Shown: positions 8,763-43,336 of the stretch, piece after piece
Position numbering within the stretch: the stretch's first letter is position 1
How the letters are laid out: each line of letters begins with the position of its first letter
DNA from: Natronoarchaeum mannanilyticum
GTDB taxonomy: Archaea > Halobacteriota > Halobacteria > Halobacteriales > Natronoarchaeaceae
Direction of reading: 5' to 3'
DNA length: 64,000 bases
Assembly (NCBI RefSeq): GCF_039522665.1
Contig: NZ_BAAADV010000007.1
Coordinates: forward strand, 496,001 to 560,000
Program-made: the position numbers and the translations under genes
Notes under the pieces: model-generated
What the model saw: only the letters and a program-made list of their open reading frames with translations
Database searches by the model: none
What the model was told of the DNA's origin: nothing

Positions 8763-8839
8763 CGAGGTCTTTCCGAGTTCGATAGCGTCGTTCCGACTCG
8801 CGACACTCCCGGGAGACGATAGATCCTGACATTATTGTT

Positions 8840-8897: not shown

Positions 8898-11800
8898 ATG
8901 TTCGACGAAAATAACGAGCAACAAAGCGCAGGGATCGGCCGGCGCGGATTCGTCGGCGGTATGGCGTCGCTGCTTGCCGCCTCGGCGTACTCGGCGTCCG
9001 TGCCCGAGGATGTCGCTGCGGAGGTTTCGGGGGGAGACGACTCGCCAGTCCAGACGGTCCGGTCGCCGGACGGGTGCGTCGAGGTGACGGTCGACGTCGC
9101 CGACGGGGTTCCGAGCTACGACCTCGTGTACGAGGGAACGACGGTCGTGGGAGACTCGGCGCTCGGGTTCGAGTTCCAGAACCAGCCGACGTTCCGCGAG
9201 GGCGTCTCGGTCACCGGGACCGAACGATCGACGGTCGACACGACGTGGGAACCCGTCTGGGACCGGTACGACGAGATCCGGGAGCACTACAACGAGCTCC
9301 GGATCGGTCTCGAAGAGATGGGGGACGGGCGATCCGGCACGCTCGAACTGCGCGCGTTCGACGACGGCTTCGGCTTCCGGTTCGTCTTCGGCGACGAGTT
9401 CGGCGACTTCGTGATCACGTCCGAGCGGACGGAGTACAACTTCGCCGGCGACTACACGTCGTGGTGGATCCAGAACGACTGGAACAGCTTCGAGTACGAG
9501 TACGAGGAGACCCAGCTGTCGGAGATCGCGTCGGCGCTACAGAACCAGACCGTCGCCGCCGCGGGCGGCGACGGCGTCCACACGCCGATGACGCTCGAAA
9601 CCGACGACGGGCTGTACGTCGGCGTCCACGAGGCGAACCTCGACGACTACGCCTCGCTGGGGATCGCGCCCCAGGGCGAGGGAACGACGCAGATGGAGTC
9701 GACGCTGGCGCCCTTGCCCGAGGGAGAGAAAGTCAAGGCGTCGGCGCCACACGTGACGCCGTGGCGGACGTTCCAGGTCGGGACGCGCCCCGGCGAACTG
9801 ATCGAGTCCAGCCTCAACCTGAATCTCAACGAGGACTACGATCCCGAGGTGTTCGAGCAGGGCGTCGACTGGATCGACCCCCAGAAGTTCATCGGCGTCT
9901 GGTGGCTGATGATCACCGGGCGCGCGGACTGGGAGTACAACCCGAACACCGACCAGTTCAACCCCGACGCCGATCCGCCGGGGGATCACGTCGGGAACCA
10001 CGGCGCCCAGACCGGCCGCGCGAAGCTGTACATGGACTTCGCCAGCGAGCACGGCATCCCCGGCGTGCTCATCGAGGGCTGGAACCAGGGCTGGTCGAGC
10101 TATCCGGGCGACGGAAGCGCCTTCTCGTACACGGACTCGTATCCGGACTTCGATCTCGAGGAGGTCACGGACTACGGGCCGAGCCTGGACGAGCCGACCC
10201 AGATGACGATGCACAACGAGACGGCGGGCGACTTCCTGAACTACGAGTCCCAGCTCGACGAGGCGTTCTCGCTGTACGACGACCTGGGCATCCGGACGAT
10301 CAAGAACGGCTACGTCGCCGACGCGGGCGATCTGGCCGGCGATGGCCACAACCACCACAACCAGGTGCTTGTCAACCACCACACGCTCGTCGCCGAAACC
10401 GCCGCTGCGAACCGCCAGATGCTCGACGTCCACGAGCCGATCCACCCGACGGGGCGCCGCCGGACGTACCCCAACCTGATGACCCGGGAGGGCGTCAAAG
10501 GCCAGGAGTACGACTCCTTCGGCTTCGTCAGTCCCGAGCACCACGTCACGTTCCCGTTCACTCGGATGCTCGGCGGTCCCGTCGAGTACACGCCGGGCAT
10601 CTTCGACATGGACTCGGGCTCCGGCGGCATCGAGTCGACGCGGGCCAAGCAGCTCGCGATGTACCCGACGTACTTCAGCGGCCTGCAGATGGCCGCCGAT
10701 CTGCCGAGCTCGTATCTCGCCGAGCAGCCTGCCACGCTGGGGGTCGGCGACGTCGCGCAGGCCGAGTGGGCCGACCTCGACGGCCTTGGGACGGCCGCGA
10801 GCTGGGCCAACGCGCAGGGCGAGCAGTACGTCGAGTTTGATCCCAACAGCGTCGACCCCGGATCGACGGCGTCGTGGACCGTCGAGGACGTCGACGAGGG
10901 CGGCGAGTACGTCCTCCACCTCCGGTACGCCAGCGACGAGGAGAACAACGCCGTGCCGGCCGACGTCGCCCGAACCGCGACCGTGCTGGTCGACGGCAAG
11001 AAGCGCGCGCAGGTCGAGTTCCCGCCGACGTACTACTGGGACACCTGGGAGTCGGTCTCGACGACGATCGAACTGGGCGCCGGCGACAACGAAGTCGCGA
11101 TCGCGCTGACCGACGCGGACTCGGGCGGGTTCAACCTCGACTCGATCGCCGTCACCGAGACGGGCGCGTCGATGCCCGAACCCGACGAGGACCCGATCCG
11201 CGGTCCCACCGTTCCCGAGTTCCAGTTTATCGAGGACGTCCCGGCGGCGTGGGACGACACGGCGGTGCTCGACGCCGAGATCGGCGACTACTCCGTCACC
11301 GCACGGCAGAGCGGCGAGGAGTGGTTCGTCGGCGCGATGACCGACGAGTACGGCCGTGCGCTCGACGTCCCGCTGGGCTTCCTCGACGAGGACTGGGAGG
11401 GCCCGGACGGGGACGACGATCACCCCCGCGGTCCCGGCAAGGGGAATGGCCGTAAGAAAGGCAAAGGCCACGAAAAGGGCCGTGGCAAGGGCCACGACAA
11501 GAATCGTAGCGACGGTCGCGGAAAGGGACACGAGAAAAAGAACGGCAAAGGCCACGACAAAGGCGAGGGCAAAGGCCACGATAAGCACGGAAAAAAGAAG
11601 GAGGAACGCGAGCCGTACGTCGCCGAGATCTACTCGGACGGCGCCGATGCCGACTACGACGAGAACCTCGCGGACGTGCGGATCGACGAGGTGCTCGTCG
11701 ACGCCGACACGACCGTGCTGGCGTCGATGGCAGGGTCGGGCGGCACCGCGATCCGACTTCGGCCGGCCGACAAGAAAGAGCGCAAGAAGTTGCCGACCTA

Positions 11801-12785
11801 CGAACCGCCCGAGCAGGAGATCCAGATCGACATCCAGGACGAGACGTTCGTTCAGGAGCCGTTCATCACCGGCACCGGCGAGAACGAGGGCGACTACGTC
11901 GGCGGCACCAACGTCGAGGTGCTCGTCGACGGCGAGGTGGTGGCGCCCGCGAACGTCCGCCTGCCGCCGAACTCCTCGGGCGAGACAGACACGGTGCCGT
12001 ACACCATCGGCGAGACGGGCAGCTACGACGTGACCGTCCGCTCGGCCGACGGCGAGACGCTCGCGTCGAACACCGTGACGGTCAACCCGCCCGAGGTCGT
12101 CACGACGCTCTCGGACCCCTCGGGCGACGACTACGGGCCCGGCGAGTACACCTACCCGAAGGCCTCGGCGTTCCAGGACGGCGCGTTCGACCTACTGGAA
12201 CTGACGGTCGAACAGACGCCGAGCTTCTACCGGTTCACCTTCGAGGTCGACAACCTCTACGACGCGTACGGCGGCGACTACGGGTTCTCGCCCCAGATGT
12301 TCGTCATGTGGGTGCGCGATCCGAGCGCGAGCGGCGGGACGAAAGGAACGCTCGACGATCTGGGCGCCAACGCCACGTTCGAGGCGCCGTGGCAGTACCG
12401 CCTCGAAGTCAGCGGGTTCACCCTGAGCGCCGTCGACGCGGGCGGGGCGTCGCTGACCGACGACGACGGCAACGTCGTCAACCCCTCGACGACCGCCGAC
12501 CTCGACAACAACACCGTCACGCTCCGGATCTCTCGCGAAGCGTTCGACGGCGCCGACGCAGCCGATCTGGAAGTCGTGCCGATGGTCCAGTCCGAGAACT
12601 TCGGCACGCTCCGAGGGGTTCAGGCTGGAGATGCGGGCAGCGACACGTTCGGCGGCGCGCAGGCCGGCGCAGTCGGCAACGCACCGCTCATCATGGACAT
12701 GATCACGCCCGACGGCGTCTCGCAGTCCGACGCGCTTGACTACTCGGCCGACGAGCTGGCGACGCTCCCGTTCGTCGAACTGTAG
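8898..12785 (+). CDS. Tat-exported multidomain GH97 glycoside hydrolase
   Basis: The 1295-residue protein starts with a Tat signal (Arg15-Arg16 in GRRGFVGG, then a hydrophobic run). The GH97 N-terminal domain covers about 50-300 and the catalytic barrel about 310-620. Catalytic-region landmarks are IEGWNQGW (Glu393) and three glutamates, 513, 531 and 537 (HEP, REG, GQEY), whose 18+6 spacing matches the acid and calcium ligands of the inverting alpha-glucosidase SusB as I recall them. A CBM6/35-like module (about 621-757) interrupts the barrel/C-domain junction, and a Lys/Gly/His-rich stretch (844-901) interrupts the GH97 C-domain. An Ig-like domain and a glucodextranase C-terminal-like domain (about 1060-1290) follow. 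Probable role: extracellular cleavage of alpha-glucans. The ATG at 8898 is preferred because the Tat motif follows it. Confidence 0.9.
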   Translation: MFDENNEQQSAGIGRRGFVGGMASLLAASAYSASVPEDVAAEVSGGDDSPVQTVRSPDGCVEVTVDVADGVPSYDLVYEGTTVVGDSALGFEFQNQPTFREGVSVTGTERSTVDTTWEPVWDRYDEIREHYNELRIGLEEMGDGRSGTLELRAFDDGFGFRFVFGDEFGDFVITSERTEYNFAGDYTSWWIQNDWNSFEYEYEETQLSEIASALQNQTVAAAGGDGVHTPMTLETDDGLYVGVHEANLDDYASLGIAPQGEGTTQMESTLAPLPEGEKVKASAPHVTPWRTFQVGTRPGELIESSLNLNLNEDYDPEVFEQGVDWIDPQKFIGVWWLMITGRADWEYNPNTDQFNPDADPPGDHVGNHGAQTGRAKLYMDFASEHGIPGVLIEGWNQGWSSYPGDGSAFSYTDSYPDFDLEEVTDYGPSLDEPTQMTMHNETAGDFLNYESQLDEAFSLYDDLGIRTIKNGYVADAGDLAGDGHNHHNQVLVNHHTLVAETAAANRQMLDVHEPIHPTGRRRTYPNLMTREGVKGQEYDSFGFVSPEHHVTFPFTRMLGGPVEYTPGIFDMDSGSGGIESTRAKQLAMYPTYFSGLQMAADLPSSYLAEQPATLGVGDVAQAEWADLDGLGTAASWANAQGEQYVEFDPNSVDPGSTASWTVEDVDEGGEYVLHLRYASDEENNAVPADVARTATVLVDGKKRAQVEFPPTYYWDTWESVSTTIELGAGDNEVAIALTDADSGGFNLDSIAVTETGASMPEPDEDPIRGPTVPEFQFIEDVPAAWDDTAVLDAEIGDYSVTARQSGEEWFVGAMTDEYGRALDVPLGFLDEDWEGPDGDDDHPRGPGKGNGRKKGKGHEKGRGKGHDKNRSDGRGKGHEKKNGKGHDKGEGKGHDKHGKKKEEREPYVAEIYSDGADADYDENLADVRIDEVLVDADTTVLASMAGSGGTAIRLRPADKKERKKLPTYEPPEQEIQIDIQDETFVQEPFITGTGENEGDYVGGTNVEVLVDGEVVAPANVRLPPNSSGETDTVPYTIGETGSYDVTVRSADGETLASNTVTVNPPEVVTTLSDPSGDDYGPGEYTYPKASAFQDGAFDLLELTVEQTPSFYRFTFEVDNLYDAYGGDYGFSPQMFVMWVRDPSASGGTKGTLDDLGANATFEAPWQYRLEVSGFTLSAVDAGGASLTDDDGNVVNPSTTADLDNNTVTLRISREAFDGADAADLEVVPMVQSENFGTLRGVQAGDAGSDTFGGAQAGAVGNAPLIMDMITPDGVSQSDALDYSADELATLPFVEL
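11427..11600 (+). repeat. KGH(D/E)K-rich coding repeat inside the GH97 gene
   Basis: Residues 844-901 of the GH97 protein are almost all Gly, Lys, His and Arg, with five copies of KGH(D/E)K at Lys856, 864, 876, 884 and 892. The DNA here is richer in A (AAAGGCCACGA units) than its surroundings. The frame is uninterrupted on both sides, so it is a real in-frame low-complexity insertion. Confidence 0.85.
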
Positions 12786-43097: not shown

Positions 43098-43177
43098 ACT
43101 CGGACGTGTGCTATCCGGCGGCGTAAACGGTGGGGTTGCGGCGGGATCGGCTGGCAGCCGGGCGGTGGGTCGCCGGC

Positions 43178-43249
43178 GGTGGCGTCAGCATCAGTGGCGG
43201 CGTCAGCATCAGTGGCGGCGTCAGCATCGGCGGCGGCGCCAGCATCGGC
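43178..43249 (+). repeat. Four tandem 18-base units upstream of the stress-protein gene
   Basis: The unit GGCGGCGTCAGCATCAGT is repeated head to tail: 43178-43195, 43196-43213, 43214-43231 and 43232-43249, with the first copy differing by GGT and the last two by AGT-to-GGC and GTC-to-GCC changes. If read in frame it would encode GGVSIS repeats. It lies between the divergent aldo/keto reductase gene and the universal stress protein gene, about 88 bases before the latter. Confidence 0.85.
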
Positions 43250-43336
43250 GGCGACGGTGTCGACCGGCGCGACGGCGTCGTCACGACGAAGTTCTCGACA
43301 CCGGGGACATTTGTGTCTCGTCGTGGACGGACACCT

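Follow-up and report, generated by a model that had tools for sequence, protein, structure and literature searches.

A position-conserved, sequence-variable and often basic loop in the C-terminal domain of haloarchaeal GH97 enzymes, with a possible role as a flexible spacer

The window analysed here is the whole stretch of 64,000 nucleotides from Natronoarchaeum mannanilyticum (contig NZ_BAAADV010000007.1, positions 496,001 to 560,000). An open reading frame scan and translation placed on its plus strand a gene encoding a protein of 1295 amino acids, which begins with an ATG at position 8898 and ends at 12785; a TTG at 8835 is also possible as a start. The protein belongs to glycoside hydrolase family 97 and consists, in order, of a Tat-like start, GH97_N, the GH97 catalytic domain, a CBM35/6-like domain, a GH97_C domain that carries a long loop, a linker region and a Glucodextran_C domain. 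The features of the gene, with the evidence for each, are as follows.

8898 to 12785, plus strand: GH97 gene, 1295 amino acids (open reading frame, Pfam, PDB sequence matches 8wg0, 2d73 and 5hq4)
9057 to 9833, plus strand: GH97_N, residues 54-312 (PF14508, E = 2.3e-63)
9864 to 10736, plus strand: GH97 catalytic domain, residues 323-613 (PF10566, E = 1.1e-81)
10761 to 11156, plus strand: CBM35/CBM6-like domain, between the catalytic domain and GH97_C (PF03422, E = 2e-7; Foldseek matches to CBM35/CBM6 structures)
11250 to 11765, plus strand: GH97_C, interrupted by the loop, residues 785 to about 956 (PF14509 in two stretches; 8wg0 alignment in two pieces)
11358 to 11372, plus strand: beta strand that precedes the loop, residues 821-825 (strand E215-219 in the AlphaFold model of 607-1295)
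11385 to 11615, plus strand: whole variable loop, residues 830-906, 77 amino acids, net charge +5 (family comparison; AlphaFold)
11385 to 11426, plus strand: acidic flank of the loop, residues 830-843, DEDWEGPDGDDDHP (sequence)
11427 to 11600, plus strand: basic core of the loop, residues 844-901, net charge +15, RGPGKGNGRKKGKGHEKGRGKGHDKNRSDGRGKGHEKKNGKGHDKGEGKGHDKHGKKK (sequence)
11460 to 11483, plus strand: octapeptide unit 1, GKGHEKGR
11484 to 11507, plus strand: octapeptide unit 2, GKGHDKNR
11520 to 11543, plus strand: octapeptide unit 3, GKGHEKKN
11544 to 11567, plus strand: octapeptide unit 4, GKGHDKGE
11568 to 11591, plus strand: octapeptide unit 5, GKGHDKHG
11616 to 11636, plus strand: beta strand that follows the loop, YVAEIYS, residues 907-913 (AlphaFold strand E301-307; conserved in the subfamily)
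12102 to 12767, plus strand: Glucodextran_C, residues 1069-1290 (PF09985, E = 1.7e-51; top Foldseek match glucodextranase 1ug9)

GH97_N (214.2 bits) and the catalytic barrel (274.8 bits) scored above their Pfam gathering cut-offs of 25.3 and 32.5, as did GH97_C (79.7 bits against a cut-off of 25), whose two matching stretches flank the loop and whose C-terminal edge is approximate. A PF16990 match in the CBM35/CBM6-like domain (E = 4.5e-4) fell under its own cut-off. The nearest PDB relatives are GH97 alpha-glucosidases, while the NCBIfam retaining alpha-galactosidase model gave a score of 217, far under its cut-off of 800. An earlier note made from the letters of the window had described the protein as acidic and secreted. 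Its acidity is plain, with a net charge of -158 over the whole protein; secretion is probable, judging by eye from a Tat-like RRGFVGG motif followed by a small hydrophobic stretch at the N-terminus. Tat/SPI-exported GH97 enzymes have been listed for Natronoarchaeum and Haloarcula isolates (PMC13260240).

The basic core is rich in Gly, Lys, His and Arg and holds the five KGH(D/E)K units that the earlier note had reported, in frame and starting at residues 856, 864, 876, 884 and 892. Six histidines lie in the core and seven in the whole loop. When the insert was shuffled 100,000 times, never more than two such units arose. Autocorrelation of the insert revealed an 8 amino acid period (0.45 at lag 8) with a 4 amino acid sub-period, and the repeat unit is therefore better described as the octapeptide GKGH(D/E)Kxx than as KGH(D/E)K alone, which we dropped. 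Because the acidic flank lies just ahead of the core, the loop as a whole carries a net charge of merely +5. The insert contains the lowest-entropy 40-residue stretch of the protein (2.55 bits against a protein mean of 3.6). At the DNA level the insert (11421-11603) has a GC3 of 0.69, compared with 0.92 in the remaining gene, and uses unusual AAA, CGT and AAT codons.

The loop lies between the segments 'RALDVPLGFL' and 'YVAEIYSDG' of GH97_C, which agrees with the earlier placement of the insertion between two strands of that domain. In a usable AlphaFold model of residues 607-1295 (mean pLDDT 71.9), residues 834-903 had no secondary structure and pLDDT values below 50 (mean approximately 25). 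Values in the neighbouring parts were mostly 70-95, and in the CBM and the domains behind the loop mostly 80-95. A low pLDDT predicts disorder but does not measure it, and we regard the loop as predicted to be intrinsically disordered. It combines the usual marks of a low-complexity or disordered region, namely low entropy, repeats and no predicted fold while its neighbours fold, and it shares its low entropy and its Gly and charged composition with the low-complexity regions surveyed in prokaryotes (PMC6821194). A title and abstract search of the literature found no paper on such loops, whether low-complexity, lysine-rich or disordered, in proteins of haloarchaea or in glycoside hydrolases.

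GH97_N, the catalytic barrel and GH97_C are recognisably alike in the bacterial GH97 enzymes 8wg0, SusB (2d73) and 5hq4. However, the aligned pieces that flank the loop meet directly in 8wg0 and 8wg1, without extra residues (query residue 831 to 903-904). In the bacterial structures approximately six residues separate the catalytic domain from GH97_C, so that no CBM stands there, and little of the chain is left beyond GH97_C. Shorter haloarchaeal GH97 paralogues (L119-L124 and L005) have the same core as the window protein, but a turn of approximately six residues replaces the loop. One of these, L119, has a CBM6/35-like match ahead of GH97_C, as the window protein does. No Glucodextran_C match was found in L119, which is cut at the end of its stretch, or in L121. 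The L005 frame matches the C-terminal half of the window protein as well, despite its short turn, so that the loop and Glucodextran_C are not strictly coupled.

A loop was present at the same site in all 35 subfamily proteins that were analysed in detail, with lengths of 20-101 residues. Twenty further haloarchaeal GH97s, mostly more distant, were also compared: 14 had a loop of approximately 17-70 residues, and the other six were members of the shorter paralogue group with the tight turn. Thus a Gly-rich loop of 17-101 residues occurs in 49 of 49 haloarchaeal enzymes of the window subfamily. Since in-frame loops occur at this place in every subfamily relative with an intact frame, and since GC3 exceeds GC2 (0.43) within the insert, an assembly or frame error, which the earlier note had named as a possible refutation, was ruled out. 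One GH97 gene (L017:7515) has its catalytic domain interrupted by an in-frame stop and its loop region altered; it is either a pseudogene or a sequencing error, and was excluded from the loop counts because of the stop.

While the position of the loop is conserved, its content is not. Net charge ranges from -18 to +10 and the number of histidines from 0 to 9 across the 35 loops. KGH-rich sequences make up most of the Natrinema loops as well as that of the window protein, and most KGH-type relatives have 3-9 histidines. Loops of the Haloarcula type are SDSNGQGPGNDNGKKNG-like, with a net charge of -3 to +2 and no His; several loops of other types lack His too, and no His spacing is fixed across the family. 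Others are clearly negative, as in L007 (-18) and L048 (-9). A tree from which the loop had been left out showed at least five changes of the [KR]GH state, which is hard to square with one conserved ligand. The conserved residues expected of a specific binding module are thus absent among close homologues, in which length, charge, His and motif all vary. The L007, L021 and L048 loops also contain stretches rich in Asp, Trp and His (GHGWWDDDD) beside KGH units, which is odd for an exported enzyme.

Composition, in contrast, is kept across the 35 loops: Gly makes up 27%, and the medians for hydrophobic residues and for Asp+Glu are 5% and 11%. In 34 of the 35, K+R is higher and acidity lower than in the remaining protein; these are not 34 separate events since the relatives are not independent. 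Among 30 close pairs, dN/dS in the loop was 0.06-0.52 (median approximately 0.23) and in the flank 0.07-0.15, with indels in 27 of the loop pairs and in none of the flanks. Gapped alignments can bias dN/dS downwards, and we therefore turned to the three ungapped pairs, one of which (L032/L033) is of the KGH type. Their nonsynonymous fractions were 0.39, 0.40 and 0.50, against neutral expectations of 0.73, 0.71 and 0.82 from a simulation built from fourfold sites, and for each pair 0 of 2000 simulations gave a fraction as low. Since the simulation yields more total changes than were observed, the fraction alone was used. These tests concern the loops of relatives, as the window gene itself lacks a sufficiently close one. 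Within the window gene, the two copies of a 73-bp internal duplicate differ at 11 of 25 third positions and at 7 of 48 first and second positions; units picked by motif would bias such a count, so we rely on this duplicate, which was defined on DNA, and on the ungapped relatives.

Strongly basic segments are uncommon around these genes, in line with the earlier note. Among simple gene models drawn from the window and from the loci of 14 relatives, 196 in all, the loop was the sole plainly internal case of +15 per 58 amino acids; three other models at or above +15 have Arg-rich stretches that we read as over-extended N-termini. In a pattern search of the organism's own genome, which is narrower than a scan of the full proteome, clustered K-G codons of an AAA-led pattern occurred in this GH97 gene only. 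A looser Gly-Lys/Asn/His/Gln codon pattern led in the same genome to a Tat-like protein (L054-L056, G000:C3:58584-58612) with a GNGNGNGNGKRG linker (GNGNGNG) and a GHEKHGRR segment, and to two open frames (L057 and L058) that look non-coding by GC by position and were set aside.

Across 391 haloarchaeal genomes, the strict repeat pattern occurred in 7 and the octapeptide pattern in 17. For the octapeptide, 32 matches were listed, compared with 7 for a reversed control. The octapeptide lay in a GH97 loop in 8 of the 17 genomes. A subset of the other matched loci was translated, and these encode LEQGDRCVP-type proteins with Tat-like starts, SNase-type proteins, a protein with a multicopper-oxidase-like tail and small Lys-rich proteins, export being read from sequence at the available starts. 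The LEQGDRCVP-type proteins (L059-L062, L077 and L081), unrelated to GH97, have acidic or Gly/Ser linkers and GKGHEKGK arrays near the C-terminus; L059 and L060 gave no Pfam match. Two SNase plus DUF4350-type proteins (L064 and L087) have GKGH-rich C-terminal tails, a multicopper-oxidase-like protein (L079) has a GNGHGNGRGNGHQKGRGNGH tail (GNGH/GKGH), and KKKRGKGKGHKK repeats are abundant in two small proteins (L088, which has no Pfam match, and L089). Lipoprotein-like proteins with DDDDDDKGHGQGHDKGHGKGHDK-type tails were also found on two contigs from a viral collection (L107 and L108), and the motif is therefore probably not confined to haloarchaea. The tails of the LEQGDRCVP, SNase and multicopper-oxidase types carry the same octapeptide array as the GH97 loop, often behind an acidic or Gly/Ser linker. 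They differ in being C-terminal tails or terminal linkers instead of internal hairpin insertions, and their host domains have no homology.

The organism's own genome also encodes a GH2 beta-galactosidase-like protein (L002/L074, G000:C1:936517-939192, minus strand) with a Tat-like start and an insertion in its sandwich domain. Like the GH97 loop, this insertion interrupts a beta-sandwich domain in a Tat-like glycosidase and is basic, variable and rich in Gly, Arg, Lys and Pro; it is kept but varied in two relatives (L075 and L076) of 52-54% identity. Unlike the GH97 loop, it is Arg/Pro-rich, contains only one KGHDK and belongs to a different fold.

The earlier note had suggested that the segment might bind acidic glycan, the S-layer, DNA or metal, and had put forward comparison of close homologues as a check, naming random variability among them as one ground for refutation. 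That comparison weakens any specific binding, given the variation in length (17-101 amino acids), charge, His and KGH, although the loops are not wholly random. The idea that the basic loop tethers the enzyme electrostatically to acidic surfaces such as S-layer glycans, extracellular polysaccharide or an acidic substrate draws on the charge of +15 concentrated in one segment of an acidic enzyme that is probably exported, on the raised K+R of nearly all the loops and on the comparable basic loop of the GH2 enzyme and its relatives. We consider it rather unlikely, as many members are near zero or negative in net charge, two binding-type domains (CBM35/6-like and Glucodextran_C) are already present, and molar salt screens long-range electrostatics. 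We would give distinctly less weight to a metal-binding loop, in which spaced His with Asp/Glu (GHDK, GHEK) would bind Zn, Cu, Ni or Ca in the manner of His-rich low-complexity segments, a class of region enriched in metal-binding proteins (PMC6821194). The His counts of the window loop and of most KGH-type relatives would suit such a role, and a GNGH/GKGH tail occurs on the multicopper-oxidase-like protein, but the His-free loops of the Haloarcula type and others, and the unfixed His spacing, speak against it.

Functionless expansion of repeats in a tolerant hairpin would fit the hypervariable length, the many indels, the 24-bp repeat units and the low GC3. It is nonetheless improbable in view of the presence of the loop throughout the long-loop subfamily, the nonsynonymous change far under neutral in the three ungapped pairs and the consistent shift in composition. 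The loop might instead modulate packing, by changing dimer or domain contacts of the C-domain, since it is inserted within GH97_C, which Pfam labels an oligomerisation domain, and bacterial structures have no loop at the site. We rate this reading, too, as having little chance of being correct; a longer AlphaFold model (residues 46-1060, mean pLDDT 48.7) is too poor for placing the loop relative to the catalytic domain or the active site, and the models contain no oligomer.

The variation is not entirely random, since the loops are Gly-rich, hydrophobic-poor and, in 34 of 35, less acidic than the remaining protein, with nonsynonymous change below neutral; the loop therefore appears to be selected for composition and not for one ligand-binding sequence. 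Its position is conserved, its length and sequence are hypervariable, and its composition (Gly, polar or charged, poor in hydrophobic residues) is kept. On balance we favour, with some confidence, a disordered loop held in position, selected for composition and acting as a soluble, flexible spacer instead of a specific ligand-binding module. Duplication of 24-bp repeat units and indels would have altered its length repeatedly, while selection would hold it unfolded and soluble. As a spacer or bristle on the C-domain it may reduce sticking, space the catalytic and binding domains, or modulate C-domain contacts. The strongly basic KGH form would then be one lineage-specific filling of the loop, and contacts with acidic polysaccharide or an acidic cell surface, if any, would lack specificity.

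Two observations sit less easily with a spacer. GKGHxKxx recurs in unrelated proteins, a degree of specificity that a generic spacer would not require. In addition, halobacterial low-complexity regions average 34% Asp+Glu and are usually acidic (PMC6821194), compared with the median of 11% in the haloarchaeal GH97 loops, and a loop that is consistently less acidic therefore needs a reason beyond solubility. It is conceivable, although we think it unlikely, that exported proteins of haloarchaea have convergently reinvented GKGHxKxx arrays as an element for surface contact, one that would bind metals or acidic surfaces at high salt. If so, the arrays of the GH97 loops and of the SNase, multicopper-oxidase-like and LEQGDRCVP-type tails would be a basic counterpart of the usual acidic halophilic linkers.

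Acidity is the expectation for haloarchaeal proteins, and at one hairpin this subfamily maintains a disordered loop that is less acidic and often basic. Constraint at the amino acid level without a fixed sequence makes the loop a clean test case for the role of disordered loops at molar salt. It also cautions against taking KGH repeats in a single sequence as a ligand-specific motif. The top-scoring tandem array of the window lies elsewhere, at 43174-43253, and consists of 4.4 copies of an 18-bp repeat with 90% matches.
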